From positions 4,774,001 through 4,838,000 of the forward strand of contig NZ_CP041692.1 in NCBI RefSeq assembly GCF_007362775.1: a DNA stretch of 64,000 nucleotides. Direction: 5' to 3'. This document shows positions 21,777-55,809 of this stretch, piece by piece. The DNA is from Microlunatus elymi (lineage in GTDB: Bacteria > Actinomycetota > Actinomycetes > Propionibacteriales > Propionibacteriaceae). The notes beneath the pieces were generated by a model. The model was not told where the DNA came from. It worked only from the letters and a program-made list of their open reading frames with translations, and made no database searches. The position numbers and the translations under genes are program-made. Each line of letters begins with the position of its first letter. Within the stretch, counting starts at the first letter, position 1.

Positions 21777-21850
21777 TTGTCCGAGGCTCTGCAGACTTCG
21801 CCGAGCTAGCGCAGCAAAATCGCCGAATCGAACTGCACACGCTCGGACAA
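21777..21850 (-). repeat. Palindromic repeat A1 (5' side of nuclease-like gene)
   Basis: 74 nt with perfect 9-nt inverted ends TTGTCCGAG / CTCGGACAA. It is repeated directly as A2 at 22458-22532 with about five mismatches and one indel. On the minus strand its centre reads GATTCGGCGATTTTGCTGCG, which resembles the centre of the B repeats at 33.9-36.3 kb. It ends 7 nt before the GTG of the gene at 21858. Confidence 0.8.
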
Positions 21851-21857
21851 CCCGCCT

Positions 21858-22454
21858 GTGGATAACCAAGCCCGGGCAGCCGAGTCGTGCACCAGGCTTG
21901 ACCGGTGTCCGAACTATCTCGTTTCCGACGCGAGCTGCCGGCAGCTCGGGCAACTGGGCTTGAGCAACGGCGAGCTCACCGAATATGCACTGTCGCATCA
22001 TCGGTTGCATGGCGCCGAACAAGCAGTGCGGGCTAGCGCTTGGGCCGAACCTGGGATCGAGAGCCCGTGGGAAACACGGCTCAGGATCTGTTATCGGCAA
22101 CAGGCCGGACTGCCCGCACCGCTGATCAACCAGCCGATCTTCGACCTCGAAGGGCGCTTTCTTGGAGAGCCCGACCTCTTCGATCCGGAGGCTGCAGTGG
22201 CCACCGAATTTGATGGCGAGTATCACCGGGACCGTTTCCAACATCGCGCCGACAACCTTCGGGAGGAAGTCCTTGAGGAGGCGAACGTGACCGTGCAACG
22301 AATCGACTCGCTCGATCTCATCCGAGATCGGATGCCGCTGATCGAGCGACTGCAACGCGGGCATCGGCGCGGCACCAGGCGGGATCGACGGCTCGATTCT
22401 TGGACCCTGACCCGGCCCGAGTGGTGGCTGCGACGACGACAACCAGAATGGTGA
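21858..22454 (+). CDS. DUF559/Vsr-like nuclease-fold protein, N-terminally deleted
   Basis: A 198-residue frame starting at GTG 21858. From about residue 23 it aligns with residues ~170-330 of the protein at 33972-34958. Shared segments are SPWE-x-RLR-x-CYR, AGLP-x-PLIN, PDLFDP-(E/D)-A-A and E-(F/Y)-DG, then H-RD, DNLREE-x-LE-x-ANVTV and GHRRGT. The PD...E-x-D-G pattern with a following His is that of the PD-(D/E)XK-like DUF559/Vsr fold. The winged-helix/AbiEi-like N-terminal half is missing, so it may be non-functional or a solo nuclease domain. It is flanked by repeats A1 and A2. Confidence 0.6.
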   Translation: MDNQARAAESCTRLDRCPNYLVSDASCRQLGQLGLSNGELTEYALSHHRLHGAEQAVRASAWAEPGIESPWETRLRICYRQQAGLPAPLINQPIFDLEGRFLGEPDLFDPEAAVATEFDGEYHRDRFQHRADNLREEVLEEANVTVQRIDSLDLIRDRMPLIERLQRGHRRGTRRDRRLDSWTLTRPEWWLRRRQPEW

Positions 22455-22457
22455 GTT

Positions 22458-22532
22458 TCTCCGAGGTTCTGCAGACTTCACCGAGCTACCGCAGCCAAGA
22501 TCGCCGAATCGAGCTGCACACGCTCGGACAAA
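22458..22532 (-). repeat. Palindromic repeat A2 (3' side of nuclease-like gene)
   Basis: Direct repeat of A1. Inverted ends TCCGAG / CTCGGA (22461-22466 and 22524-22529) are followed inwards by TGCAG / CTGCA. The minus-strand centre reads GATTCGGCGATCTTGG then CTGCGG, 18 of 22 positions identical to the centre of B3. It begins right after the gene's stop codon. Confidence 0.8.
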
Positions 22533-22567
22533 TCCGGAGTCCGTATCGAATCATGCGACTGGAATCG

Positions 22568-23536
22568 TCAGCCCCGAGCGCGGCGGCGTTTGCCTTCGTG
22601 CATCGCCGCCACCCGGGCGATCGGGATCCGGTGTCCCTCGGCGATCAGCTCGGCGGGCAGCCGTTGCGGCGGCGGCATGGTTCCGCGCCAGGGATCGGTG
22701 ACCTCGTCGGCGTCGAGCAGCGCGGGCACCGTACCGATGGTGAAGTCGGCTGGGCGGACGTCGGCCAACTCAGCCCACGTCAACGGGTACGAGACCGGCA
22801 GACCGGGCCGGGCACGTGGGCTGAAGGCGGCGGCAACCGTCGCGCCACCGGCTCGGGTGGAGTCGACGAACACCTTGCCGCCGCGCTGGTCCTTGACGTA
22901 CGCGACGGTCGCGTTGTCGGGGTCGTGGGTTGCCGTGCGCTGAGCGATCGCCCTGGTCGCCGCCGCGACGTCATCGACCCCATGGTCGAGATCGACCGGC
23001 ACCAGGATGTGGATGCCCTTCGAACCGCTGGTCTTCAACGCTGCTTGGAGTTCCAGCGCCTCGAGCACCTCCCGGACCGCGCCGGCGACCTTGCTCACCG
23101 CGTCGAAATCGGCGCCCTCGGGCGGATCCAGATCGATGATCAACATCGACTGCCGGCCAGCGAGGTCCAGCAGTGCAGGGTGGAATTCGACCGCTCGTTG
23201 ATTGGCCAGCCACAACAACGTGCGTCGGTCCTCGCAGACCGGATAGTGCACGGTCCGGCGCGACGCCTCGGACCACTGGTCGACCCGCGGAATCCACTCG
23301 GGGGCGTAGTCGGGCAGGTTCTTCTGCATGAACGGCGGCTGCCCAGGACGTACCCGAATCACCGACAGAGCCCGGTGTGCGAGCCCCGGCAACAGCAGTC
23401 CCGAGACCCGGTCCAGATAGTCGACGAACTCACGCTTGGTCTGCCCCGAGCCGTCCAGCATCGGCTGATCGAGATGGGTCAGCTCCACCCCGTCCCGTAC
23501 CTCGTCCACCTTGCGGCCGGCCATCAGAACCGCCAC
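22568..23536 (-). CDS. LigD-type polymerase/primase domain protein
   Basis: A 322-residue stand-alone polymerase domain of the bacterial non-homologous end-joining ligase LigD (archaeo-eukaryotic primase fold). The catalytic DLDPPEG carries the two Asp, a third acidic strand follows, and SGSKGIHILVPV is the conserved nucleotide-binding segment. It can add NTPs/dNTPs at DNA ends. No ku or ligase gene is in the window. A GTG at 23536 or an ATG at 23521 may be the start; GGTGGCGG lies before the ATG. Confidence 0.88.
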   Translation of the reverse strand: MAVLMAGRKVDEVRDGVELTHLDQPMLDGSGQTKREFVDYLDRVSGLLLPGLAHRALSVIRVRPGQPPFMQKNLPDYAPEWIPRVDQWSEASRRTVHYPVCEDRRTLLWLANQRAVEFHPALLDLAGRQSMLIIDLDPPEGADFDAVSKVAGAVREVLEALELQAALKTSGSKGIHILVPVDLDHGVDDVAAATRAIAQRTATHDPDNATVAYVKDQRGGKVFVDSTRAGGATVAAAFSPRARPGLPVSYPLTWAELADVRPADFTIGTVPALLDADEVTDPWRGTMPPPQRLPAELIAEGHRIPIARVAAMHEGKRRRARG

Positions 23537-23714
23537 CGGGAGCTCGGAGACTGGGATTGAACTCCCGTCGAGCGCAGCGAGACCGGCCTCGGAGCGAAGC
23601 GGAGAGACCGCGGCGACTCAGCCGGTGAACGTGACCACCGGCGGGGTGCAGGGGTCGCCCCCGCAAGGTGACCTACAGCACCCGACCAGCGGCAGCGGCA
23701 GCAAGCGGACGTAT

Positions 23715-24242
23715 TCAAGACTGGTACGTGCCGACGAGGATTGCCCGGGCGGCCGTCTTGAACGCCAGGTTGAAGCTCATCACCGCCGGGGACGAGTTCC
23801 GATCGATTCCGAGGGTCTCCTCGGTGACCGCGTGCACGACGAAGTAGTACCGGTGCACCTGGTCGCTCTGCGGCGGAGCGGCGCCCATGAACGCGTGCTG
23901 GCCGCCGTCATTGCGGAGCATGAAGGCGTTGCCGGGCAGGTTCGAGTCCTCCTCCCCCGCGCCGGTGTCCAGCGAGGTGACGTCGCCCGGCAGGTCGACC
24001 AGGGCCCAGTGCCAGAAGCCGCTCGGCGTCGGCGCGTCCGGGTCGAAGCAGCTGACCACGAAGCTCTGGGTCTGCTCCGGGAAGCCGGACCAGGACAGTT
24101 GCGGCGACGTGTTGCCGATGCTGGCGACCTGGGCATCCTTCAGCGGCTGCCCGTCGGTGACGTCGGTGCTGGTGACGGAGAACGAGCCGACCTTCGGCAG
24201 CAGTTCGTACGGGTCCGGTGCGACGGGACGTTCGAGGCTCAT
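23715..24242 (-). CDS. YbhB/YbcL-family (PEBP, Raf-kinase-inhibitor-like) protein
   Basis: A 175-residue phosphatidylethanolamine-binding protein family member. The ligand-pocket motif DPDAP and the following HWALVDLPGDV, and the later HRYYFVVHAV (G-x-H-R-type segment), are conserved. The anion-binding pocket role in bacteria is unclear. Length is typical. It is followed on the same strand by the LigD-type gene after a 178-nt gap, so co-transcription is possible but not evident. Confidence 0.9.
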   Translation of the reverse strand: MSLERPVAPDPYELLPKVGSFSVTSTDVTDGQPLKDAQVASIGNTSPQLSWSGFPEQTQSFVVSCFDPDAPTPSGFWHWALVDLPGDVTSLDTGAGEEDSNLPGNAFMLRNDGGQHAFMGAAPPQSDQVHRYYFVVHAVTEETLGIDRNSSPAVMSFNLAFKTAARAILVGTYQS

Positions 24243-24263
24243 GGTTCGGACTCTAGCCTCGAT

Positions 24264-25058
24264 TCAGTTGCCGACGCCTTGATACCGATTCAGGCCCTTG
24301 CGCCAGACCAGGGACGCAACCAGGGATGAGCCGGCCGCGGCGATCACCGGGGTGACGGCCCACCAGCCGGGTGCATCGCCCACCCCGAGGACCAACCGGC
24401 TCGGAAAGTAGCTGATCAACCCGTACGGCAGCAGCACCGTCACCACGAACCGGATGCCGGCACCGTAGATGTCCAGCGGGAACTTGGCGAAGTCCCGCAT
24501 CAGCGCGATCAAGGTCGGAAACGCGCTCTGCGCACTCGGTTCCCAGAACGCGATCATGTTGGTCAGCAGGCTGATCGCCGTGGTCAGGATCGCGCCGCAC
24601 AGCACCGTCAGGACCAGCAGCGGGACCGACCACCAGGCCCACTGCACACCGGAGTGCGCCAGTCCGATGATCAACACCACCACTCCGAGCCCGGCGTTGC
24701 CGACGCCGTGGATGGACGCGAGTGCGGTGAACTGCTGGACCACCGGCGGAACCGGACGGACCAGGACCCGGTCGAAGGACCCGCTGTTGACGTCGGCACG
24801 GAGCTGCCAGGCACCATCGGTGAACATCTCTCGCAGTCCATCGGCGGCCATCACCAGGCCTTGCAGGACGAGGATCTGCCACAGCGTCCAGCCACCCAGC
24901 GAGCTGACGTGCCCGAAGAATGTCACTAGGAACACGATGCTGACCAGCTGCTGCAGAATCGCACCGACCGCGGCGATCCAGAAGTCCGCACGGTATTCCA
25001 TCGCCGACCGCAGTTGGACCAACTGCAACCGGAAAAAGATCTTGATCACGCTGATCAT
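24264..25058 (-). CDS. ABC-2 family permease (second subunit)
   Basis: A 264-residue membrane protein with about six helices, of the ABC-2/DUF990 type. It follows the first permease gene with only 2 nt between stop and start (TGATCATG) and shares its layout, so the two probably form a heterodimeric channel for the ATPase encoded at 25894. ATG 25058 begins MISVIKIFF. Substrate unknown; related three-gene exporters carry drugs or lipids. Confidence 0.85.
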   Translation of the reverse strand: MISVIKIFFRLQLVQLRSAMEYRADFWIAAVGAILQQLVSIVFLVTFFGHVSSLGGWTLWQILVLQGLVMAADGLREMFTDGAWQLRADVNSGSFDRVLVRPVPPVVQQFTALASIHGVGNAGLGVVVLIIGLAHSGVQWAWWSVPLLVLTVLCGAILTTAISLLTNMIAFWEPSAQSAFPTLIALMRDFAKFPLDIYGAGIRFVVTVLLPYGLISYFPSRLVLGVGDAPGWWAVTPVIAAAGSSLVASLVWRKGLNRYQGVGN

Positions 25059-25060
25059 GA

Positions 25061-25897
25061 TCAGCCGCCCTGGATCTCGACGATGCGGAACGCGCGTCGC
25101 CAGGCCAGATTGGCCAGTACCCACAAGGCGACCAGCCAGAACAGCTGCAAGCCGAGCAGGCCGACGGCATCCCAGCCCGTGCTCTGCCCCAGATACAACT
25201 GCAGCGGCGTGGAGACGATGCCGCGCAGTGGCAGCACTCCGGCGATCACCTGCAGCCAGGCCGGCATCAGCGCCAGCGGGACGATCGTGCCCGACAGGAT
25301 CTGCATGATCGCCTGCTGGGACCACATCAGGCCCATGCCGTTGAGAGTCCAGAAGGTCAGCAACGACACCAGAAAGACCACCAGGACCTTGGTCAGGAAG
25401 CCGATGATCAACGCCAGCACGAAGAGCAACGCCGCGGCCACCGATGCCGGTGCCTCGATGTGCAGGAAGATCAATCCGATCGCCAGCGTGAAGGCCAGGC
25501 TGACAGCGCCCTCCACCACCGTGTAGCCGACCGATCGCGCCAGTTGGGTGGTGCAGTAATTGAGTGGCCGTACCATTTCGAAGACCACGTCGCCGGTGCG
25601 GATGGTCGCCATCATCGCCGAACCCGTACGCCACCCGACGAGTGCATTGATCCCGTACGCGATCACCACGTAGGTACGCATCTGGTCCCAGGTCAGACCG
25701 CCGATCGAGGTCCGTCCTGCGTACGCGGATCGCCACAGGTAGTAGAGGATGATCACCCAGATGAAAGTCAGCCCGACGTTGAACAGCGTCGTGATCCGGT
25801 ACGCGATCGCCTGCTGCAGCGTTGTCCGCGCCAGCGACAGGTACTTCGGGCCGGGTTCGGTCCGGCCCCGCCAGGTCGTCTCCTCGACCGCGGTCAC
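25061..25897 (-). CDS. ABC-2 family permease (first subunit)
   Basis: A 278-residue integral membrane protein with six predicted helices (for example TTLFNVGLTFIWVIILYYLW and VVEGAVSLAFTLAIGLIFL). It belongs to the ABC-2 permease group (DUF990-like). Its ATG overlaps the end of the ATPase gene by 4 nt, giving strict operon coupling ATPase-permease-permease. Confidence 0.85.
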   Translation of the reverse strand: MTAVEETTWRGRTEPGPKYLSLARTTLQQAIAYRITTLFNVGLTFIWVIILYYLWRSAYAGRTSIGGLTWDQMRTYVVIAYGINALVGWRTGSAMMATIRTGDVVFEMVRPLNYCTTQLARSVGYTVVEGAVSLAFTLAIGLIFLHIEAPASVAAALLFVLALIIGFLTKVLVVFLVSLLTFWTLNGMGLMWSQQAIMQILSGTIVPLALMPAWLQVIAGVLPLRGIVSTPLQLYLGQSTGWDAVGLLGLQLFWLVALWVLANLAWRRAFRIVEIQGG

Positions 25898-26928
25898 CGT
25901 TCGGTGCCTTCGGCCGGCTGGAAGCTGAGGTTGCCTTCGTACAGTCGGCGAACGATGGACTCGGCCGACGTCTCCTCCAGAGCAAGATCAACAACCGGCA
26001 GCGCGAGTGCGAGTTCCTTGATCACCTCGCCGGAGCTGATCACTCGGCTGTCGAAGGTGACGACCAGGCCGGTCGCCGTGGCTTCGATCAGCGGCTCGAC
26101 CCGAGCCAGCGCAGCGCGCGCCCGCTCGGCCGCGTCGGGCGTGCCGTCACCGAGCGTGGCCACCACCTTCTGCTCCCAGCCGAACCGTCGGGTGACCTCG
26201 TCGAACTGGCCGTCGTAGACGATGCGGCCCTTGTCGATCATGATCATCCGCGGGCACAACTCCTCGATGTCGCCGAGGTCGTGCGAGGTCAGCAGGACGG
26301 TCAGACCACGACGGGCCCGCATGCTGCCGACGAACTCCCGCAGCCGTGCTTTCACGGCGACGTCGAGGCCGATCGTCGGCTCGTCCAGGAACAGCACCCG
26401 TGGTGAGTGGATGAGCGAGGCGCCGAGATCACAGCGCATCCGCTGCCCGAGGGACAACTGCCGGGCGGGCACCCCGAGCAGCGGGGCAAGGTCGAGGACG
26501 TCCACCAACTCGTCCATGGTGGTCCGGAAGTCGGCGCCCGGCACCGCATAGATGTCACCGAGCAGCCGGAACGACTCGCTCACCGGGATGTCCCACCACA
26601 GCTGGGTCCGCTGACCGAACACCACGCTGATGTTGCGGGCGTTGGCCGGCCGGTCGCTGTGCGGCCGCACCCCGCAGACGTCGATCGTTCCCGCGGACGG
26701 CATCAGGATCCCGGTCAGCAGCTTGATGGTCGTCGACTTGCCGGCACCGTTCGGCCCGACGTAGGCGACCGACTCGCCCTCGTCGATGCTCAGGTCGATG
26801 CCGTCGACGGCCGTCACCGTCTCGTGGCGCGGTCGCAACAGATGGCGTACGGCTCCGGCCAGGCCAGGCGCCTTCTGCGGCCGCCGGAACCTCTTCACCA
26901 GACCCTGAGCAGCGATGATCGGGGACAT
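25894..26928 (-). CDS. ABC exporter ATP-binding protein
   Basis: A 344-residue ABC ATPase. Walker A GPNGAGKST, signature LSLGQRM, Walker B VLFLDEPTIGLD and H-loop SHD are all intact. After the ATPase core there is a C-terminal extension of about 90 residues of the kind seen in NatA/DrrA-like exporters. It drives the two ABC-2 permeases encoded downstream. ATG 26928 is the family start; the gene is divergent from typA. Confidence 0.92.
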   Translation of the reverse strand: MSPIIAAQGLVKRFRRPQKAPGLAGAVRHLLRPRHETVTAVDGIDLSIDEGESVAYVGPNGAGKSTTIKLLTGILMPSAGTIDVCGVRPHSDRPANARNISVVFGQRTQLWWDIPVSESFRLLGDIYAVPGADFRTTMDELVDVLDLAPLLGVPARQLSLGQRMRCDLGASLIHSPRVLFLDEPTIGLDVAVKARLREFVGSMRARRGLTVLLTSHDLGDIEELCPRMIMIDKGRIVYDGQFDEVTRRFGWEQKVVATLGDGTPDAAERARAALARVEPLIEATATGLVVTFDSRVISSGEVIKELALALPVVDLALEETSAESIVRRLYEGNLSFQPAEGTER

Positions 26929-27012
26929 GGTCCCAGACCCTAACTTGCACGCCCGGTCCGCCGCAGGTGGGATCCTGACCAGCGACGAATCGGCCTCGTC
27001 GTCTCCGATCGG

Positions 27013-27018
27013 TAGAAT
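27013..27018 (+). promoter_or_regulatory. Likely -10 box of typA
   Basis: TAGAAT lies 54 nt before the typA ATG in the divergent region. No convincing TTGACA is at the right distance, so the match rests on the -10 hexamer alone. Confidence 0.4.
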
Positions 27019-27071
27019 CACCGGGTTGCCCGCCGGGCCTCCCCAACAACGTCGAAGGAAGAAGCATCCGC

Positions 27072-28931
27072 ATGCCCACTCGCTCTGACCTGCGCAACGT
27101 CGCAATCGTCGCGCACGTCGACCACGGCAAGACCACCCTGGTGGACGCGATGTTGTGGCAGTCCGGCGCCTTCCGTACCGGTCAGGACGTGGCCACCCGA
27201 GTGATGGACTCGATGGACCTGGAGCGGGAGAAGGGCATCACCATCCTGGCCAAGAACACCGCGGTCCGGCACACCATGCCGGACGGCCACGAGGTCACGA
27301 TCAACATCATCGACACCCCCGGGCACGCCGACTTCGGCGGCGAGGTGGAGCGCGGGTTGGAGATGGTCGACGGGGTGCTGCTGCTGGTGGACGCCTCCGA
27401 AGGTCCACTGCCGCAGACCCGGTTCGTGCTGCGCAAGGCGTTGGCCAAGAAGCTGCCGATCATCGTGGTGATCAACAAGGTCGACCGGCCCGACGCCCGG
27501 ATCGCCGAGGTGATCGAGGAGACCAGCGAGCTCTTCCTCGACCTGGCCGGCGATGATGATCTTGAGATCCTGGACTTCCCGGTGGTGTACGCGTCCGCAA
27601 AGGCCGGCCGGGCGTCGGTCAACCAGCCCGAGGACGGCGGGATGCCGGACGCGGAGGATCTGCAGCCGTTGTTCGAGGTGCTGCTGGACAAGATCCCGGC
27701 ACCGACCTATGTCGAGGGCGCGCCGCTGCAGGCACACGTGACCAACCTGGACTCGTCCCCGTACCTCGGCCGGCTGGCGCTGTGCCGGATCGTCGCCGGC
27801 GAGCTGAAGCGCAACCAGGCCGTGGCCTGGTGCAAGCGCGACGGTTCGATCAGCACCGTCAAGCTGTCCGAGTTGTTGATCACCAAGAACCTGGATCGGG
27901 AACCGGCCGAATCGGCCGGACCCGGCGACATCGTTGCTATTGCAGGGATTCCGGAGATCACCATCGGCGAGACGCTGGCCGACCCGGAGGATCCGCGGCC
28001 GCTGCCGTTGATCATGGTCGACGAGCCGAGCATCTCAATGACGATCGGCATCAACACCTCGCCGCTGGCCGGCAAGTCGGGCAAGAACCTGACCGCCCGG
28101 CTGGTCAAGGCTCGTCTTGATCAGGAACTGATCGGCAACGTGTCGATCAAGGTGCTGCCGACCGAACGGCCGGACACCTGGGAGGTGCAGGGTCGCGGCG
28201 AGCTGCAGTTGGCGGTGCTGGTGGAGACCATGCGGCGGGAGAGCTTCGAGCTGACCGTGGGCAAACCGCAGGTGGTGACCAAGCTGATCGACGGCAAGCT
28301 GCACGAGCCGGTGGAGCGGCTGACCGTCGACGTGCCGGACGACTTCGTCGGCGTCGTCACCCAGCTGCTCGGGCTGCGCAAGGGCCGGCTGGAGCAGATG
28401 ATCAACCACGGTTCGGGCTGGGTGCGGATGGAGTATCTGGTGCCGGCGCGCGGGCTGATCGGCTTCCGGACCGAGTTCCTCACCGAGACCCGCGGCACCG
28501 GTCTGATGCACCACGTCTTCGAGCGCGAGGAGCCGTGGGCGGGCGACTTCAGGACCCGGCCGACCGGGTCGCTGGTGGCCGACCGGTCCGGGCAGGTCAC
28601 CGGGTACGCGTCGTTCAATCTGCAGGAACGCGGCACCCTGTTCGTAGGCCCGGGCACCGACGTCTACGAGGGCATGATCATCGGCGAGAACCCGCGGCCG
28701 GAGGACATGGACGTCAACATCACCAAGGAGAAGAAGCTGACCAACGTGCGCTCCTCCACCGGTGAGGAGCTGGAGCGGCTGGTGCCGCCGAAGTTGATGA
28801 GCATGGAGCAGGCGCTGGAGTTCTGCCGCGAGGACGAGTGCATCGAGGTCACCCCGAACGCGGTACGGATCCGCAAGGTGATCTTGAACGCCGGCGAACG
28901 CGCCCGGGCTCGTACCCGGGTCAAGCGCTGA
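27072..28931 (+). CDS. typA: Translational GTPase TypA/BipA
   Basis: A ribosome-associated GTPase of 619 residues that assists 50S assembly and stress or cold adaptation. G1 [10 protein letters not shown]3 DTPGHADF and G4 NKVD are intact, followed by EF-Tu-like domain 2, EF-G-like domains III and V ([36 protein letters not shown]) and the Lys/Arg-rich C-terminus. ATG 27072 has GGAAG upstream. Confidence 0.97.
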
Positions 28932-29136
28932 CCCGGCGGCTCCTCGTGTGCGAGGCTCGGTGTGGATTTTTGACCGTACCGTGACCCGTTTTGTCGGCCC
29001 CTTGTGTCGACACCGGACCCGGCGTAGGGCAAAGTTAGCGCTCGCCGGGCAAACGCCGGCATTGCGCGCATCTTCCCCCAATGGCGCTGGTTAGATGTCA
29101 GCAGCATGAGCAAGATTCACAGGGGGGACACCACCG

Positions 29137-30006
29137 ATGACCCGGTTGTCATCCGATCCGTCACGCGACGAATCGACTGCCGTGGCGGCACCAGCCACCG
29201 ACGACGGCACCCAGCACACTGACCTGCGGCCGACCCGCCGGCTGCCGTTCGCGGCCCGGATCGGCCTGAGCGGTCTGGTCGCGATCATGATGGCGCTCGG
29301 CCTGCTGGTTGCCGGCAACGCGGCCACCGCCGAGGCGAAGACCACCTACCTGACCACGAAGTTCCAGCATCCCAAGTACGGCCAGACCAACAGCGCGGTG
29401 AAGAATCTGCAGCTGCGGCTGGCCGATGTGGGCCTGTTGAAGAAGAAGTACGCCACCTCGTACTTCGGGTCGATCACCCGCGACGCGGTGAAGGACTTCC
29501 GGCATTCGGTCGGGATGAAGCGCGGCAAGGGCACCGTGACCAAGAAGGTGTGGAAGAAGCTGGTCAAGAAGAGCGGCAAGGTCAAGGCTGCCAGCAGCAC
29601 CGGCGGTTCCTCGCATGCGTCCAAGGGCGTGATCGACAAGCGCTGCAAGACCAACGGTCGGGTCATGTGCATCGACAAGACGACCCGCAAGCTCTACTAC
29701 ATGAACAAGGGCAAGGTCATCAAGACCCTGGACGCCCGCTTCGGTTGCTCCAACTCGCCGACCCGCAACGGCACCTGGAAGGTCTTCCGCAAGGTCCGTC
29801 ACGACTGGTCTCGCGCCTACGGTTCGGCGATGCCGCTGTCGATGTACTTCAGCGGTGGTGAGGCGGTGCACTACTCCTCCGACTTCGCGGCCCGCGGCTA
29901 CGCCGGCTGCAGCCACGGCTGTGTGAACATCCGCGACAAGAAGACCCTGACCTACGTCTACAACCGGATCCACGTCGGCGACCGCGTGGTCGTCTACTGG
30001 AGCTGA
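29137..30006 (+). CDS. L,D-transpeptidase with peptidoglycan-binding domain
   Basis: A 289-residue exported enzyme. The N-terminus carries a long cytoplasmic segment and a signal/anchor helix (about residues 44-66, ending AEA-KTT). A PG_binding_1 domain follows (about 80-145, Lys-rich), then a YkuD catalytic domain. The active site is HYSS followed by SHGCVNIRD with the nucleophilic Cys. It cross-links peptidoglycan stems 3-3 or attaches proteins. AGGGGGGA provides a strong ribosome site. The protein is strikingly Lys-rich for so GC-rich a genome. Confidence 0.9.
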   Translation: MTRLSSDPSRDESTAVAAPATDDGTQHTDLRPTRRLPFAARIGLSGLVAIMMALGLLVAGNAATAEAKTTYLTTKFQHPKYGQTNSAVKNLQLRLADVGLLKKKYATSYFGSITRDAVKDFRHSVGMKRGKGTVTKKVWKKLVKKSGKVKAASSTGGSSHASKGVIDKRCKTNGRVMCIDKTTRKLYYMNKGKVIKTLDARFGCSNSPTRNGTWKVFRKVRHDWSRAYGSAMPLSMYFSGGEAVHYSSDFAARGYAGCSHGCVNIRDKKTLTYVYNRIHVGDRVVVYWS

Positions 30007-30023
30007 TCGCTCGACCGCAGCCT

Positions 30024-30425
30024 TCAGGAGGCTTGCTCCTGCGCGGCCTCGGCTGCCGAGGCCGCGTTCTCCCGGACGAAGGACGCGTACACGTCGATCA
30101 GCACCCGCTTCTGGCGCTCGCTGATCGCGGTGTCGGCGAGCACGGCGGTCTCCACCGGCAGCGACGGATGATCATCGGGGTCCAGGATCCCGGCCCGGAC
30201 GTACAGCTGTTCGGCGGAGATCCGCAGCGCCCGGGACAACTGCTGCAACACCTCGGCCGAGGGTTTGCGCAGACCCCGCTCGATCTGACTGAGGTACGGG
30301 TTGGAGACACCGGCCTGCTCGGACAGTTGGCGTAGCGACAGCCGCGCCGCCCGGCGCTGCGCCGCGATGAACTCCCCGAGTGAGCCGAACTGCTCCCCCA
30401 AATTCGGTGCCTTGATCCGTGTCAT
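30024..30425 (-). CDS. XRE-family helix-turn-helix regulator
   Basis: A 133-residue regulator. The HTH is at about residues 17-70 (LSLRQLSEQAGVSNPYLSQIERGLRKPS). The C-terminal helical part (ISERQKRVLIDVYASFV) ends in an Ala/Glu/Gln-rich tail. The same architecture is seen in the mycobacterial Rv0474-type regulators. It has a perfect palindrome directly upstream, implying autoregulation. Confidence 0.85.
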   Translation of the reverse strand: MTRIKAPNLGEQFGSLGEFIAAQRRAARLSLRQLSEQAGVSNPYLSQIERGLRKPSAEVLQQLSRALRISAEQLYVRAGILDPDDHPSLPVETAVLADTAISERQKRVLIDVYASFVRENAASAAEAAQEQAS

Positions 30426-30434
30426 GCGGCCAGC

Positions 30435-30454
30435 CTGCTTGCAATAGCAAGCAG
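30435..30454 (-). promoter_or_regulatory. Palindromic operator of the XRE regulator
   Basis: Perfect inverted repeat CTGCTTGC-AATA-GCAAGCAG, 9 nt upstream of the XRE start codon. The symmetry and position are what an HTH dimer repressing its own gene would need. Confidence 0.65.
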
Positions 30455-30485
30455 ATTCAAGGGTTCGGCTAGCAGCGTCGCCCGG

Positions 30486-33101
30486 TCAGTGCCGGACGGA
30501 GCGCGGGACCGAGGCGGTGATCAGGCTGCCGTCCTCGCGACGGCCGCGGGTGGTGAAGGCCTTCTCGGCGTCGATCCGCGGACCTTGTCCGTCCAGCGGG
30601 ACGGTCTTGGTCTCGCCGTTGCGCAGACGTACCTCGGTGCCGCGGACCGAGAAGTGCGCCTCGGTGCCTTCCTCGACGGTGAACTCGTACTGATCGTGCG
30701 TCAGCACCGCACGCACCCGGGTCCCGCGGACGGTGAAGCGGAAGGTCAGCGACGGCCACTCGTCCGGCAGTCGCGGGTCGAAGCTGATGTTGCCGTTGTA
30801 ATCCCGCATGCCGCCGAAGCCGGACACCAGCGCGGTCCAGACGCCGCCGGCGTTGGCCACGTGCACACCGTCGCTGGTGTTGCCGTGCAGATCGGCAAGA
30901 TCAACAAAGAGCGCCTGGGTGAAGTAGTTCATCGCCAGTTTGTGATAGCCGACCTCGGCCGCGATGATCGCCTGCACCACCCCGGACAGCGTCGAGTCAC
31001 CGGTGGTGATCGAGTCGTAGTACTCGAAGTCGGCCTTCTTCTCCTCCAGGGTGAAATGATCACCCTGCAGGAAGAGCGCCAGCACCACGTCGGCCTGCTT
31101 GAGCACCTGGAAGCGGTAGATCACCAACGGGTGGTAGTAGAGCAGCAACGGCCGCCGATCCGACGGCGTGTTGGCCAGGTCCCACACCTCGCGCTCGAGG
31201 AAGTGGGCGTCCTGCGGATGCACACCGAGCCCTTCGTCATAAGGGATGTGCATGGCCTCGGCGGCCGACGCCCAGTCCTCGACCTCCTCCGGCTCCAACT
31301 GCAGCCGTTCGACCATCCGGCGGTATTCGTCCGGTGCCCGCTCGGCCATCCGGTTCACCGTCTCCGCGGCCTTACGCAGGTTGTAGCGGGCCATCACGTT
31401 GGTGAACAGGTTGTCGTTGACCACCGTGGTGTACTCGTCCGGCCCGGTCACGCTGTGGATGTGGAAGGCGCCGTCGCCGTTCTCCCGCCAGAAGCCGAGA
31501 TCGGTCCACAGCCGCGCGGTCTCCACCAGAATGTCAATACCTTGACGTCTCATGAAGTCGTCGTCACCGGTGGCCGCGACGTATTTGCACAGGGCAAAGG
31601 AAATGTCGGCGTCGATGTGATACTGCGCGGTGCCGGCCGCGTAGTAGGCCGACGCCTCGTGGCCGTTGATCGTCCGCCACGGGAACAGCGCACCGCGTTC
31701 GGCAAGATCACCCGCCCGGGTGCGGGCCGCGTCCAGCAGGTTGTAGCGGAAGCGCATCGCGCTGCGCGCCATCGACGGGGTGGTGTAGATCAGGAACGGC
31801 AGCACGTAGATCTCGGTGTCCCAGAAGTAGTGCCCGCCGTAGCCGCTGCCGGTCACCCCCTTCGCCGGTACGCCGGCCTGCTCGGCTCGGCCGGCCGCCT
31901 GCGCCAGCTGGAAGATGTTCCAGCGAACGGCCTGCTGCAGTTGAGGACTGCCCTCGATCCGTACGTCGGAACGGGCCCAGTAGCCGTCCAGCCAGGCCCG
32001 CTGATCGTCGTACTGCTGCTGCACACCCTGATCGCGCGTCCGGTCCAACGTACGGCGGCACCGATCGACCAGCTCGCGCACCGGCACCCCGCGGGAGGTG
32101 TGGTAGGCGACCAGCTTGGTGATCTTGATCGGCACGCCGGGCTCGGCCTGCACCCGGTAGACCATCTTGCCGGCGTCCTCGTCGGTGTCGATCAATCCCT
32201 CGTGCCGGTTGGCGGTCTCGATCAGATGATCAACTCCGACCGCCAGCGTCATCCGCGAATTCGCGCACCGGTAGCCCAAGATCATCCGACCGTCGCCGTG
32301 CCAGTGACTCTGCGGTTCCAGCACCCGCGACTCGAAGGCGTCGGCCTTGCGCGGATCCCAACCCTCGCCCATCGCGGCCGATCGGACGTGGTACTCGTCC
32401 TTGCCGTCCTGCCGGTTCAGCACCTGCGAGGACACCACCACCGGCGCCGGTTGATCGAGAACGGTGATCTCCATCTCCATCACCGCCAGATGCCTTTGGG
32501 TGAAGGAAACCATCCGGCTCGACTTCACCAGCACCCGCTTGCCGCCCGGGGTTCGCCAGAGAATTTCACGGGTCAGCCGCCCGTTCTGGAAGTCCAGCGT
32601 CCGGTCGTAATGATCAAGGTCGGCCACCGACAGCAGCATCGGTTCGTCATCCACGTACAACTTCATCGTCTTGGTGTCGGGCACGTTGACGATGGTCTGC
32701 CCGACTCGGGCGAAGCCGAACGCCTCCTCGGCATGCCGGATCGGCCAGGTCTCGTGGAAGCCGTTGATGAAGGTGCCATGGGTGTGGGTCTCGCGGCCCT
32801 CCTCCACGTTGCCGCGGAAACCCAGATAACCGTTGCCGACCGCGAACAGCGTCTCAGTGGTACCAAGATCATCGGCGCCGTACGAGGCTTCGGTCAGTCG
32901 CCATTCGTCCACCGGGAAGCGCAGCCGATCGAGATGATCACGGACCGGGGCGGGCTCGTCGCCCGCGGTCCCCGGCGTCGCACCGGTGCTCAACCGCTGC
33001 CGGCCCAGGCTCTCTTCCCAGCCGTCGCTGACACCATCGCGCTCGGCGACCAGCCGGGCGTCGGTGCTGTCGGTCGGCTCGATCAGGTCATGACGGTCCA
33101 T
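30486..33101 (-). CDS. Glycoside hydrolase family 65 disaccharide phosphorylase
   Basis: An 871-residue GH65 enzyme, likely maltose, trehalose or kojibiose phosphorylase, which splits an alpha-glucobiose with phosphate to give beta-glucose 1-phosphate. The N-terminal beta-sandwich is followed by the (alpha/alpha)6 barrel. The general acid is in TGPDEYTTVVNDN and the phosphate-binding loop in TGDSTLSGVVQ. GGHYFWDTEIYVLPF is also family-specific. Its start overlaps the HAD phosphatase/mutase gene by 14 nt, and that partner converts the product to glucose 6-phosphate. The exact disaccharide cannot be told from sequence. Confidence 0.92.
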   Translation of the reverse strand: MDRHDLIEPTDSTDARLVAERDGVSDGWEESLGRQRLSTGATPGTAGDEPAPVRDHLDRLRFPVDEWRLTEASYGADDLGTTETLFAVGNGYLGFRGNVEEGRETHTHGTFINGFHETWPIRHAEEAFGFARVGQTIVNVPDTKTMKLYVDDEPMLLSVADLDHYDRTLDFQNGRLTREILWRTPGGKRVLVKSSRMVSFTQRHLAVMEMEITVLDQPAPVVVSSQVLNRQDGKDEYHVRSAAMGEGWDPRKADAFESRVLEPQSHWHGDGRMILGYRCANSRMTLAVGVDHLIETANRHEGLIDTDEDAGKMVYRVQAEPGVPIKITKLVAYHTSRGVPVRELVDRCRRTLDRTRDQGVQQQYDDQRAWLDGYWARSDVRIEGSPQLQQAVRWNIFQLAQAAGRAEQAGVPAKGVTGSGYGGHYFWDTEIYVLPFLIYTTPSMARSAMRFRYNLLDAARTRAGDLAERGALFPWRTINGHEASAYYAAGTAQYHIDADISFALCKYVAATGDDDFMRRQGIDILVETARLWTDLGFWRENGDGAFHIHSVTGPDEYTTVVNDNLFTNVMARYNLRKAAETVNRMAERAPDEYRRMVERLQLEPEEVEDWASAAEAMHIPYDEGLGVHPQDAHFLEREVWDLANTPSDRRPLLLYYHPLVIYRFQVLKQADVVLALFLQGDHFTLEEKKADFEYYDSITTGDSTLSGVVQAIIAAEVGYHKLAMNYFTQALFVDLADLHGNTSDGVHVANAGGVWTALVSGFGGMRDYNGNISFDPRLPDEWPSLTFRFTVRGTRVRAVLTHDQYEFTVEEGTEAHFSVRGTEVRLRNGETKTVPLDGQGPRIDAEKAFTTRGRREDGSLITASVPRSVRH

Positions 33102-33819
33102 CGGTTACCAACTCTCCAAGATCGGCCACCACGATGTCAGCCCCTGATTCGATCAACTTGTCTGCTCCGGCGCCGCGGTCGACCCCGACCACCAGCCCGA
33201 AACCGCCGGCGCGGCCGGCGGCCACCCCGGACAACGCGTCCTCCATCACCACGGCCCGATCGACCGGTACGCCCAGCTCCTCCGCGGCGGCCACGAAGGT
33301 GTCCGGTGCCGGCTTGCCGGGGAGTTCGCGCTCGGTGGCGACGTTGCCGTCCACGATCACCTCGAACCGATCCAGCAGCCCGGCCGCCCGCAACACCGGC
33401 CGGGCGTTGCGGGAGCTCGACACGACGGCCACCGCGACCTTCTGGTCGGTCAGCTGGTCCAGCAGCCGGACCGACCCGGCGAAGGCCCGAACGCCATCGG
33501 TCTCCAGCACCCCGGAGAATTCGCGATTCTTGCGATTCCCCAACCCACACACCGTTTCCGCCTCCGGTTGATCGTCCGGACTGCCTTCCGGCAATTCGAT
33601 CCCCCGCGAGGCCAGGAAGCTGCGTACGCCGTCGTAGCGCGGCTTCCCGTCCACATAGTCGTAGTAATCCTGCTCCGTGTACGGCCTGGTGTCACCGCGG
33701 CGCGCGAGGAAGTCGCTGAACATCCGCTCCCAGGCCCGCATGTGTACCTCAGCGGTCGGCGTCAGCACGCCGTCGAGATCGAACAGAACGGCCGCGTACG
33801 TGCCCAGAGTGGTTGTCAC
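33088..33819 (-). CDS. Beta-phosphoglucomutase-family HAD protein
   Basis: A 243-residue HAD-superfamily protein. The nucleophile motif is FDLDGVLTPTAEVH, with motif II VVSSS, motif III Lys in LPGKPAPDTF and motif IV VMEDALSGV. It most likely isomerises beta-glucose 1-phosphate to glucose 6-phosphate. Overlap with the GH65 gene shows they form one operon. GTG 33819 fits the family N-terminus; the frame remains open to 33975, into repeat B1. Confidence 0.9.
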   Translation of the reverse strand: MTTTLGTYAAVLFDLDGVLTPTAEVHMRAWERMFSDFLARRGDTRPYTEQDYYDYVDGKPRYDGVRSFLASRGIELPEGSPDDQPEAETVCGLGNRKNREFSGVLETDGVRAFAGSVRLLDQLTDQKVAVAVVSSSRNARPVLRAAGLLDRFEVIVDGNVATERELPGKPAPDTFVAAAEELGVPVDRAVVMEDALSGVAAGRAGGFGLVVGVDRGAGADKLIESGADIVVADLGELVTDGPS

Positions 33820-33890
33820 AGCCGTCAAGCGTAGGGCCCAGCCGATTGAAATCTCGACCGCCCGCACCGCGAGCGACGGCCTCCCCGGCG

Positions 33891-33950
33891 CAATCTGCCG
33901 GCCAGACGGCTGGGATGTGGGCCTTTTCGGGTGCGTTTCCCCGGCAGATC
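33891..33950 (+). repeat. Palindromic repeat B1 (3' side of nuclease-like gene)
   Basis: 60 nt with inverted ends ATCTGCCGG / CCGGCAGAT. It is a diverged copy of B2 and B3; its centre reads GTGGGCCTTTTCGGGTGCG. It lies between the start of the HAD gene and the stop of the nuclease-like gene on the minus strand. Confidence 0.75.
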
Positions 33951-33971
33951 GGGGCCCGCCCGCACCCTTCG

Positions 33972-34958
33972 TCATCGCCGGTCAGGATCGATGAGGGTCC
34001 AGCTGTCGTGCGAGCGGTTGCGTTGTGTCCCACGTCGGTGACCGTCGAGGATCCTTCGCCTCAATCCTCGCCGGTCGCGGATGATGTCTGCCTTGGTGAC
34101 CCGAACGACAGTCACGTTCGCCGACTCCAGCGCTTCCTCCCGCAGGTTGTCCAGCCGATGCTGCTGGCGATCGCGGTGTTGATCGCCGTCGTATTCGACC
34201 GCGAGCGCGGCATCGGGATCGAACAAGTCGGGAATTCCGAGCAGGCTCGCGTTCCGAGCGGAGAACACCGAGGAGTTGATCAGCGGCTCGGGCAGTCCGG
34301 CATCGAACCGATAGCAGTACCGCAGCCGGGACTCCCACGGACTGCGCACGTCGCGACGGGCCAACTTGACCGCGTGCTCCGCACGGGCATGACCGCTGAT
34401 CCCCGGATGCTCCGCCAAGTAACTGGCCAGGTCCGCGTCGCGCACCGCGAGAAACGCCAGCACCGAGTCGACGAACACGATGGCCTCCGGGAGACTCGTC
34501 GCCCAGCGCGCGCCGTCGATACTGCTGCGGATCGGACCGGTGATCCGGATCCCGTTGCGCTGCTGGATTCTCGACATCGGTCCCAGCCGATGGAAGCGCT
34601 TCGTCGACGTACTGCGACGTTTGAGTCGATCAGTCAGCACGTCGATCGGCAACGGTCGCAGACTGAACGGATCCAGCCCGTCGAGCCAATCCACCCCCAA
34701 CACGTACGCCGCCGCCCACCCGCCGATGACCACGTCGTCGCCCAGCTCGGCTACACAGTCGACGATCCGCTGGGCCGTCGTTGGTGCAGCGCCGTTCGTC
34801 GGCGCGTACACGCCGTACCCCGCCTTGCGCCACTTCGCCCCGCGCAGCGCGCCACGCCCGACACCTTGACTGCGAAGTTCCTCGACACGGAGCGGCTTGG
34901 CTGCGGTCGCCAACTCCCGCGCGAATCTCGATCTGGCCACCCGCCAACCCTGAGCCAT
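33972..34958 (-). CDS. AbiEi-like N-terminus plus DUF559/Vsr-like nuclease-fold protein
   Basis: A 328-residue protein. The N-terminal half looks like the winged-helix AbiEi/antitoxin-type DNA-binding region (RVEELRSQGVGRGALRGAKW...GYGVYAP, then a VIGGWAAAYVLGVDWLDG core). The C-terminal half is a PD-(D/E)XK-like DUF559 domain (GIPDLFDPDAALAVEYDG, then H and DNLREEALESANVTVVRV). No AbiEii partner lies beside it. ATG 34958 has GGGGAGG 11 nt upstream; an in-frame GTG at 34988, inside GTGGATAAC, is also possible because the shorter relative begins at that same signature. Function unknown. Confidence 0.65.
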   Translation of the reverse strand: MAQGWRVARSRFARELATAAKPLRVEELRSQGVGRGALRGAKWRKAGYGVYAPTNGAAPTTAQRIVDCVAELGDDVVIGGWAAAYVLGVDWLDGLDPFSLRPLPIDVLTDRLKRRSTSTKRFHRLGPMSRIQQRNGIRITGPIRSSIDGARWATSLPEAIVFVDSVLAFLAVRDADLASYLAEHPGISGHARAEHAVKLARRDVRSPWESRLRYCYRFDAGLPEPLINSSVFSARNASLLGIPDLFDPDAALAVEYDGDQHRDRQQHRLDNLREEALESANVTVVRVTKADIIRDRRGLRRRILDGHRRGTQRNRSHDSWTLIDPDRR

Positions 34959-35018
34959 CCACGAGGTACCTCCCCGCCAGTTATCCACAGGCCTCTGTTG
35001 CGTACCTCGGGAAAAGTC

Positions 35019-35089
35019 GAATCTGCCGGGCAGACGGCTGCGAATGGGCCGATTTCGGGTGCGCCTGGCCGGCAGATTCGGTTCAATCG
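35019..35089 (+). repeat. Palindromic repeat B2 (5' side of nuclease-like gene)
   Basis: The 61-nt palindrome core (35019-35079) has ends pairing over 15 nt with one mismatch: GAATCTGCCGGGCAG / CTGGCCGGCAGATTC. Identity with B3 continues for 10 nt (GGTTCAATCG), which overlaps the stop codon of the DUF2332 gene. The centre is GAATGGGCCGATTTCGGG then TGCG. Confidence 0.85.
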
Positions 35090-36137
35090 AGGGGCCGGAT
35101 CCACTCGCCGTGCTGATCGACCAAGGCCAGGTGGGAGGTGATGACAGGTTCGCCTGGGCGCCGCTCCTCCAGCGTGAGCAAGAAGGATCCTCGATGCCGA
35201 CGGAATCTTGGGTCGGCAGATCCCTCCAAACTCAGGTGGAACAGCGTGTGCGACGCACCCATCTGGTTGATGGCGTCGTCGAACTCGGGTCGGTCCTCCG
35301 GCGGCACGTGCGCCCTGGTCGCAGCGTGGAAGATCACCACGGATAGCTCAGGCGGGAGATCGCGCACGACTGGCGCGATCAGACGTCGCGCGTCGCCGAC
35401 GACCCGCCGCGGCGGATCAGTCGCGAGCACCGACAACGCAGCGTCCAGCAACGCGGCCTCGTGCAGGTTCTCGGGCCAGACCAACGCCTGCATCCAGGCC
35501 CGGTCGTCCGGATCACCGGGATCGATGGGGTTCAAATCGATCCCGACGGCGACTCGCAATTCGGGCGTCAGATCCAGGTCGGGCACCCGGTGGGTGGATC
35601 GCCACTCGAAGTCGATGTGCACGGGAGACTCGTTCGCTCCCCAGGTCGCGCCCGCGACGCTGTACCGGTAGCCGTCATGCGCCAGCAACAGCCCAGCACT
35701 ACAACCGACTCGACCAACGCGACCGGCCCGTCGGTCCGGTCGGCGACGCTGGTCAGCCCGAGCCGCACTGCGGCCGCGCGCTTGACCACGTTCGTCTGCA
35801 CCAGCCTGCTTGCGATCACCGAACCGAGGAAATCGGATCGGTCCCGGCAGTGCGCAATGAATGCTTCCCCGGCGTCGGGCGGGTTTCGGACGGCCTCCGG
35901 GCCAACGATCGAGGCGTACCACTGCGCCAGGTCGGCGGTCGGTTGCCGCATGAGCGAGAGGTGTACGGCGGCGAACAACATGTTCGGTGGCGGTTGCCCA
36001 CGGCGACAATGACTCGCGAGCTCGAGCAAGTCGCTGTTGTCTGCAATCACGGGACACAGTGCCTGATACAGCGGCGACAATGCGAACGTCGGTGCCGCGC
36101 CGAAGAAGAGCTCCCGGAGATCGGAGTACGGATCCAT
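35083..36137 (-). pseudogene. Frameshifted DUF2332 family gene
   Basis: Two overlapping frames together make one DUF2332 protein of about 350 residues. The first frame (start 36137, MDPYSDLRELFFGAAPTFA) runs well to ...GPVALVE. The second continues VGCSAGLLLAHDGYRYS... to the stop at 35083, the usual (E)-(V/I)-G-x-S-A-G-L motif of the family. The shift is near 35709-35713 on a GAGTCGG stretch; a single missing G in the reading strand would restore the frame. There is no slippery heptamer, so this is a decayed gene or a base-calling error rather than programmed frameshifting. Function of DUF2332 is unknown. Confidence 0.75.
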
Positions 36138-36205
36138 AGCCGAGGATCCTGCACGTCTCCGCGGATCGGAGGTTGCTCCTCGCCGAGTTGTCTCACCTGG
36201 TTGGT

Positions 36206-36276
36206 GAATCTGCCGGCCAGACGGCTGCGAATGGGCCGATCTTGGGTGCGTTTCCTCGGCAGATTCGGTTCAATCG
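36206..36276 (+). repeat. Palindromic repeat B3 (solo copy)
   Basis: Near-identical to B2: a 61-nt core 36206-36266 with ends GAATCTGCCG / CGGCAGATTC and the same 10-nt extension GGTTCAATCG. Its centre is GAATGGGCCGATCTTGGG then TGCG. It lies 69 nt upstream of the DUF2332 start with no nuclease gene adjoining on its other side. Confidence 0.85.
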
Positions 36277-55731: not shown

Positions 55732-55809
55732 CCCATCAGCCGCGCGCAAGAACCACCGCCGCACCCGGAATTTCGCGCGCGGCGGCAGGTTTGGCGCGCG
55801 GCTGATGGG
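55732..55809. repeat. Nested palindromic element (class E/F)
   Basis: 78 nt with 16-nt perfect ends CCCATCAGCCGCGCGC / GCGCGCGGCTGATGGG, then AACC / GGTT and CGCCGC / GCGGCG, and a centre CGGAATTTCG like that of the element at 37297. It abuts the stop codon of the next gene. Confidence 0.65.

Follow-up and report, generated by a model that had tools for sequence, protein, structure and literature searches.

The DNA analysed here, called the window throughout, is a 64-kb stretch of the complete genome of a Microlunatus-like soil actinobacterium. It carries two genes with similarity to AbiEi/DUF559 (Vsr-like) nucleases, n1 and n2, and palindromes of three types, A, B and C (Table 1). An earlier note had described two loci at which such a gene is bracketed by copies of a palindrome. 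This description holds and is more general than was first seen: A1 and A2 are direct copies on either side of the plus-strand n1 reading frame, and B1, B2 and B3 are direct copies as well. B3 stands alone, and the palindromes therefore occur also without a nuclease gene.

Table 1. Nuclease genes, palindromes and DnaA-box-like motifs in the 64-kb window
Feature	Position	Strand	Remarks
Palindrome A1	21777..21850	-	upstream of truncated n1; ends TTGTCCGAG...CTCGGACAA; DNA fold z -4.9
DnaA-box-like motif TTATCCACA	21857..21865	-	between A1 and n1; overlaps nominal start codon
n1	21858..22454	+	AbiEi/DUF559 (Vsr-like) nuclease gene, truncated at its 5' end and reduced to the C-terminal domain
Palindrome A2	22457..22531	-	downstream of n1; 91% identical to A1
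Palindrome B1	33891..33949	+	downstream of n2
n2	33972..34940	-	full-length AbiEi-like + DUF559/Vsr-like nuclease of 322 aa; reading frame stays open as far as 34988
DnaA-box-like motif TTATCCACA	34981..34989	+	between n2 and B2
Palindrome B2	35019..35079	+	upstream of n2; DNA fold z -5.7
Palindrome B3	36206..36266	+	solo, past split DUF2332 gene, 1.2 kb further; 88% identical to B2
Palindrome C	55737..55804	+	solo; cognate nuclease gene L016 at about 2.743-2.744 Mb

The best ungapped direct repeat of 59 nt within 1.5 kb in the window is identical at 51 of 59 positions, compared with 31-35 in ten triplet-shuffled windows. Compared with shuffled sequences, folding as single-stranded DNA is far better for A1 and B2 and moderately better for A2 (z -2.4) and B3 (z -2.5), but not clearly so for B1 (z -1.2). 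A centre common to both types had been proposed in the earlier note, with 18 of 22 positions shared between A2 and B3. On recounting we found about 16 of 22, and once more copies were aligned the centre turned out to be the variable part of both families. It is therefore no evidence that A and B are related, and the common core was rejected.

The palindrome ends within the window are TTGTCCGAG, GAATCTGCCGG and CAGCCGC. Over 164 aa the n1 product shares 75.6% identity with the C-terminal half encoded by L305, a full-length gene at ~607 kb in the same genome that has the same TTGTCCGAG-type ends. Four genes, n2, L067, L305 and L321, share 45-49% mutual identity and have different palindrome ends. 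The close relatives n1 and L305 thus share one palindrome type and these more distant genes do not, as would be expected if each protein had a cognate repeat.

By sequence, n1 matches the Pfam family MTES_1575 (E 1.4e-4, under the family cut-off), and our own HMM covers it at model positions 151-308 only. Its nominal GTG start falls within the DnaA-box-like motif. Pfam scans of n1, n2 and 30 homologues gave only MTES_1575, DUF2726, DUF559 and AbiEi_1, and a RAYT (HUH/Y1) domain was absent from them. NCBIfam yielded no family match and a PDB sequence search no meaningful one. A structure model of the protein consists of an AbiEi-like half and a Vsr/EDxHD nuclease domain. The model predicts a PD-(D/E)XK nuclease fold with conserved acidic and histidine residues as candidates for the active site. 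The structure that it resembles most is that of I-Bth0305I, a homing endonuclease of the EDxHD class; the N-terminal half resembles the AbiEi antitoxin and is probably DNA-binding. Assignment to a known defence system was rejected, PADLOC giving weak matches only (mREase_II, E 8.4e-5 for n2). An RNA gene was likewise dismissed, as Rfam had no credible match between 21 and 37 kb and a single sub-threshold miRNA match at 27.5 kb.

In the window's genome 16 genes of this family were found. Thirteen lie between palindromes or arrays of them, one has them on a single side and two have none, as judged partly by eye (L067, for instance, was counted as bracketed by eye at a score of 33, the threshold being 36). 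The palindrome sequence varies from gene to gene and is gene-specific. The wider survey covered part of the homologue matches, namely 29 loci and 60 further stretches. Six loci with duplicate genes were removed; 114 genes were located, and L057 and L127 were dropped for short flanks, leaving 112 (L160 is without an HMM match). The public loci L068, L071 and L073 appear to come from the same genomes as G012 and G017, and no 3' end is common to two genes. Upstream and downstream repeats matched each other in 45 of the 112 family genes, compared with 2 of 127 control genes, for which ORFs called on base composition were taken (Fisher p 3e-15); some of the flank hits near the threshold resemble coding sequence. 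Mismatched flank pairs were similar in 8 of 950 cases, and 36 of 100 genes had matching repeats when the window's own genome was left out. Many homologues are accordingly bracketed, one of the points on which the earlier note had made the association depend, but 67 of 112 stay under the threshold and some clades show little. Among 50 cases, 26 have their flanking copies in direct and 24 in inverted orientation; there is therefore no fixed geometry as in RAYT loci. Hairpin score alone separated genes from controls poorly: a score of at least 24 was reached on both flanks by 18% against 0%, on either flank by 54% against 19%, and a score of at least 18 on either flank by 86% against 84%.

Unexpectedly, the motif TTRTCCACA, which we take to be a DnaA box, lies just upstream of 46 of the 112 family genes and of 1 of the 127 controls. 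Its only two sites in the window are those at n1 and n2. Its place between upstream palindrome and gene may couple expression to replication.

The palindromes are mostly about 45-120 nt long and imperfect, and in the counted families the copies are discrete, mostly intergenic units. Intergenic repeats of such kind are common in the window's genome. Dispersal was counted for three families (A was followed less closely, and scoring covered part of the initial candidates), which occupy at least 14 (B), at least 50 (C) and at least 21 (a palindrome of G022, another genus of the family) distinct places. Of the 14 places of B, 13 score 48-80 bits with a model built from nine of them, and the best match in 24 other genomes reaches 29.7 bits; some match at E <= 1 occurs in 24 of 25 genomes, mostly weak. 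The G022 palindrome is missing from five of six other genomes, the sixth having one 29-nt match. Both families are essentially confined to their own genome. C was searched genome-wide in the window's genome only, where partial copies are included among its 50 places, and 670 kb of relatives' loci contained none at E <= 0.01. Its cognate gene L016 lies between a copy at 2743058 and copies at 2744250/2744372.

The C family also showed how sharply the unit is delimited. In 19 copies conservation averages 1.4 bits per position inside and is 0-0.7 outside, with 1.8 at the first base on each side. A C copy folds clearly better than its shuffles (z -5.2), and among 22 copies both sides of the stem have changed in 12 of 32 pairs, with 29 such cells compared with a mean of 16.5 in shuffles, which ignore relatedness among the copies. 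Of 26 placed copies 11 lie between convergent genes, whereas convergent gaps make up 45 of 182 in relatives' loci; three lie within a predicted ORF.

The earlier note had suggested looking in relatives for sites lacking one whole repeat-gene-repeat unit. No clean site of this kind was obtained at n2, n1 or L005. At the n2 locus the HAD gene and its neighbour are kept in ten of ten relatives and GCVT, within the available 10 kb, in nine; n2 and DUF2332 were seen near HAD in none of the ten, and the site is not cleanly empty because other DNA fills the gap. At the n1 locus the GTPase gene is absent beside LigD in the available DNA of all 13 relatives, some of these loci ending at contig ends. 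At L005 three relatives have unrelated DNA over about 1.9-3.0 kb, and two more match on one side only. One C copy between convergent genes is missing in G012 and G006, two of five relatives; in G011 some 1.6 kb of other DNA occupies the site, and in G004 and G008 the two genes do not lie together. At this one locus the palindrome-free site in two of five genomes could also reflect loss there. Flanking DNA is shared by 51% of 49 pairs of genes whose proteins are more than 60% identical, by 9% of 307 pairs at 50-60% and by about 1% below that; Kribbella-like orthologues retain both a neighbour gene and the palindrome ends. Related genes thus often occupy corresponding sites in related species, which favours vertical inheritance of the gene.

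We lean towards the view that these genes and palindromes form an independently evolved REP/RAYT-like system built around an unrelated enzyme. Each family protein would recognise its own cognate palindrome, probably in a hairpin or cruciform form that replication exposes, and would nick or cut it, which would let the palindrome copy to new sites; the gene itself would pass on mostly vertically, co-diverging with its repeat, and the DnaA box may couple its expression to replication. Binding, cutting, spread by the nuclease and coupling to replication are inferred here. The RAYT-like role suggested earlier for a PD-(D/E)XK-type protein has gained from the matching flanks, the gene-specific palindromes, the near one-genome dispersal of the B and G022 families, the discrete ends of C, the palindrome-free site and the predicted nuclease fold. 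A bolder version, a second REP machinery with a dozen or more different AbiEi-Vsr nucleases in one genome, each disseminating its own palindromes and tied to replication by the DnaA box, is also plausible, and we hold it a little more tentatively.

Homing is an explanation we regard as rather unlikely: the palindrome would be the nuclease target and the gene would have been copied into a cut solo palindrome, ending up between two copies. The match to I-Bth0305I fits, as does the relatedness of n1 and L305, both of which lie between A-type palindromes, yet A is the only type seen with two genes in one genome. There are more solo palindromes than genes (14 and 50 places with one gene each) and their spread is left unexplained; moreover, the complete copies flanking a gene would stay cleavable. 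The palindromes on either side of a gene are whole, and so are many of the solo ones. The palindromes might instead serve the nuclease genes as operators or terminators, and the protein would then also bind the dispersed copies, as regulatory sites or terminators. AbiEi antitoxins are autorepressors, the N-terminal half is AbiEi-like, copies lie near gene start and stop, and 11 of the 26 placed C copies lie between convergent genes. We nevertheless consider this improbable, since length, covariation, sharp ends and family-specific sequence are unlike ordinary terminators, and operators do not account for the downstream copy, the one-genome dispersal and the palindrome-free site.

Still less probable is a single transposon of repeat, gene and repeat with solo palindromes as deletion relics. 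The layout is transposon-like and n2 and DUF2332 are absent near HAD in the relatives, but genes of high identity often share flanking DNA, the Kribbella-like orthologues keep a neighbour gene and the palindrome ends, the only genes that look like close copies in the window's genome are n1 and L305, and the 19 solo C copies stop exactly at the palindrome end. That generic intergenic repeats lie beside genes of a common family by chance is hardly credible: common as such repeats are, this does not fit the excess of matching flanks over controls or the gene-specific sequence.

If the REP/RAYT-like interpretation is true, a non-homologous nuclease family has adopted the REP layout, and such a way of life has arisen more than once. 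A function would thereby be suggested for a class of DUF559/AbiEi proteins. The matched protein-DNA pairs, a dozen or more in one genome, would serve for working out a specificity code, and through the DnaA box a coupling to replication can be tested directly. Searches of the open-access literature, which leaves most subscription papers and preprints uncovered, showed no paper that links DUF559/Vsr-like genes to flanking palindromes. To our knowledge, it is the HUH-type RAYTs that have been connected with the spreading of short palindromic repeats in bacteria.

The likeness to REP/RAYT and REPIN/BIME systems lies in a nuclease-like gene between its own palindromes, in copies that are dispersed over that genome and mostly extragenic, in clusters or arrays of copies and in the co-divergence of gene and repeat. 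The enzyme here is of PD-(D/E)XK/Vsr type, whereas RAYTs are HUH tyrosine transposases; the flanking copies are direct about as often as inverted, whereas those of REP/RAYT are always inverted; and a DnaA box is often part of the layout, unlike in REP/RAYT. The palindromes are longer than REPs, and the window's copies are without a GTAG-type head. The RAYT features compared are those given in PMC2817692, where the tabled REPs begin with GTAG/GTGG-like heads. The scanned neighbours of n1 and n2 encode a GTPase, a LigD primase-polymerase, a HAD hydrolase, DUF2332 and GCV_T; an AbiEii-type nucleotidyltransferase toxin is not among them. Compared with I-Bth0305I and the Vsr mismatch endonuclease, the proteins have an AbiEi-like N-terminal half fused to the nuclease and palindromes of their own, and the scanned neighbours include no methyltransferase; compared with the AbiEi antitoxin of type IV toxin-antitoxin systems, they carry a fused nuclease. 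The layout has so far been known for an unrelated enzyme.

At two loci of the window, 21.8–22.5 kb and 33.9–35.1 kb, a gene for a Vsr-like nuclease (DUF559 / MTES_1575 type) is located between copies of an imperfect palindrome, A1-n1-A2 and B1-n2-B2, respectively; a third B copy is found at 36.2 kb. The top-scoring window repeat is identical at 51 of 59 positions, whereas shuffled windows reach 31–35. The n2 gene is full length (322 aa). The n1 gene is a remnant of which the C-terminal domain alone is left. A full-length gene at ~607 kb of the same genome (L305), likewise flanked by A-type palindrome ends, matches it with 75.6% identity in its C-terminal half. The nominal start codon of n1 falls within a DnaA-box-like motif.

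Between B2 and B3 lies a DUF2332 gene that looks frameshifted. At the corresponding locus of the relative G011 (L249) the place of n2 and DUF2332 between HAD and GCVT is occupied by an ORF which, by reading and with no profile, resembles an ERCC4-type nuclease gene. Identical DNA, possibly an insertion sequence, was seen at three genome places (L036, L037, L038) and matches A2 over 20 nt only.

Palindromes and nuclease genes in the window and, by locus, in its genome
Feature	Window position	Strand	Remarks
A1	21777-21850		palindrome
n1	21858-22454	+	palindromes/arrays on both sides
A2	22457-22531		palindrome
B1	33891-33949		palindrome
n2	33972-34940	-	palindromes/arrays on both sides
B2	35019-35079		palindrome
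DUF2332 gene	35083-36137	-	two overlapping frames (profile 14-135 + 136-332)
B3	36206-36266		solo palindrome
C	55737-55804	+	solo palindrome
Genes in L016, L058, L060, L062, L063, L064, L066, L067, L305, L306, L321			palindromes/arrays on both sides
Gene in L059			palindrome upstream only
Genes in L061 (fragment), L310			no palindrome on either side

In the complete genome (5.12 Mb), which has Microlunatus species as its closest named relatives, 16 AbiEi/DUF559 nuclease genes were found: ten via Pfam DUF559 (including n2), n1, the L016 gene, and those of L305, L306, L310 and L321, which adjoin DnaA-box motifs (the L310 gene was also matched in L057). The earlier note had asked whether repeats flank other family members; of the 16 genes, n1 and n2 included, 13 had palindromes or palindromic arrays, partly judged by eye, on both sides. 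The A type is common to n1 and L305; by eye, identical ends were seen in no other two of the 16. At L063, L064, L133 and L135 the gene stands beside a row of several shorter repeats, not one long palindrome.

For a controlled comparison 112 homologues were assembled from this genome, its relatives (matches in 37 of the 40 genomes searched, its own among them) and, in addition, 13 public loci. The 350 nt upstream and downstream were compared, with the 99th percentile of mismatched pairs as threshold. The flanks of 45 homologues exceeded it, versus 2 of 127 other predicted genes at the same loci; scores above 45 were reached by 34 homologues and no control gene. With the window's genome left out, 36 of 100 homologues passed. 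With 600-nt flanks 50 of the 112 passed a score of 37; in 26 of these the better match was direct, in the other 24 it was inverted. The L133 and L135 genes lie between multi-copy, BIME-like arrays. In a tree of 104 homologues flanked genes are scattered, with few in some clades.

Flank similarity follows gene similarity. A flank score of at least 40 was found in 51% of gene pairs above 60% protein identity (n=49), in 9% of those at 50–60% (n=307) and in ~1% at lower identity, pairs with low or no identity being subsampled. The top scores belong to pairs with common neighbours, and the nuclease gene thus keeps its place. Among orthologues from a presumed Kribbella (L108, L138, L148, L150; L104, L105) the palindrome ends are kept in otherwise divergent spacers; L113, the L059 orthologue at 59% identity, has other ends than L059. 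Gene and repeat appear to evolve together.

The palindromes are also dispersed. A covariance model built from nine B places detected at least 14 distinct places in the genome (13 at 48–80 bits, one at 27.8), with scores computed for 150 of ~4,000 first-look candidates. Among 24 other genomes the best match had 29.7 bits, and 24 of 25 genomes gave some match at E <= 1. The C type, whose cognate gene in L016 is flanked by C copies, occupies at least 50 distinct places, partial copies included (40 of 76 candidates scored). A repeat from L139 of G022, a relative in another genus, was located at no fewer than 21 places in that genome; of six other genomes, five had none and the sixth one 29-nt match. 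Sharp ends were seen in 19 C copies, and among 22 copies the stems covary, with two-sided changes in 12 of 32 pairs (29 covariation cells versus a shuffled mean of 16.5, exceeding every slid structure). Of 26 placed copies, 11 lie between convergent genes, 7 between tandem and 4 between divergent ones, 3 in predicted ORFs, and 1 was unplaced as to class. At some places (211, 2050, 2369 and 2830 kb) C copies are paired or in triplets ~50 nt apart, which is REPIN/BIME-like. At one C copy between two convergent genes, the congeners G012 and G006 have a short junction only; this copy was therefore gained in the window's genome or lost in both. In three other searched genomes the site holds ~1.6 kb of other DNA (G011) or the two genes are apart (G004, G008).

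The motif TTRTCCACA, which we take to be the DnaA-box, was found at -300 to +90 in 46 of the 112 genes versus 1 of 127 controls (350 nt upstream), 43 of 48 sites near nuclease genes lying at -120 to 0. Downstream it occurred in none of the 112 and in one control; the background is 2 in 562 kb. The longer GTTRTCCACAG occurs 30 times in the genome (reversed pattern, 3), 13 of these at 12 genes of the nuclease family. Genes beside 7 of the remaining 17 boxes were scanned and gave DnaB, SSB, UvrB-interaction, phage integrase, UPF0102 and RcpC, besides one gene that matched no family; a tie to replication and repair genes is thus only hinted at. The box lies upstream of the first five (L301, L312, L327, L307, L317).

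We propose, by analogy, that nuclease and palindrome may work like REP/RAYT. The Vsr-like nuclease could nick a hairpin on the lagging-strand template, whereby the palindrome would be copied; alternatively, it could cut a cruciform that is then repaired from another palindrome copy. Through the DnaA-box the nuclease would be made when palindromes are single-stranded at forks. The main rival is homing, with the palindrome as nuclease target, and such timing would fit either reading. Since the enzyme is unrelated to RAYT and the window palindromes have no GTAG head, the system, with its proposed REP/RAYT-like action, is not classed as REP/RAYT. The likeness lies in the layout, gene-specific repeats, within-genome dispersal and co-divergence, which are described for REP/RAYT (PMC2817692) and are found here too.
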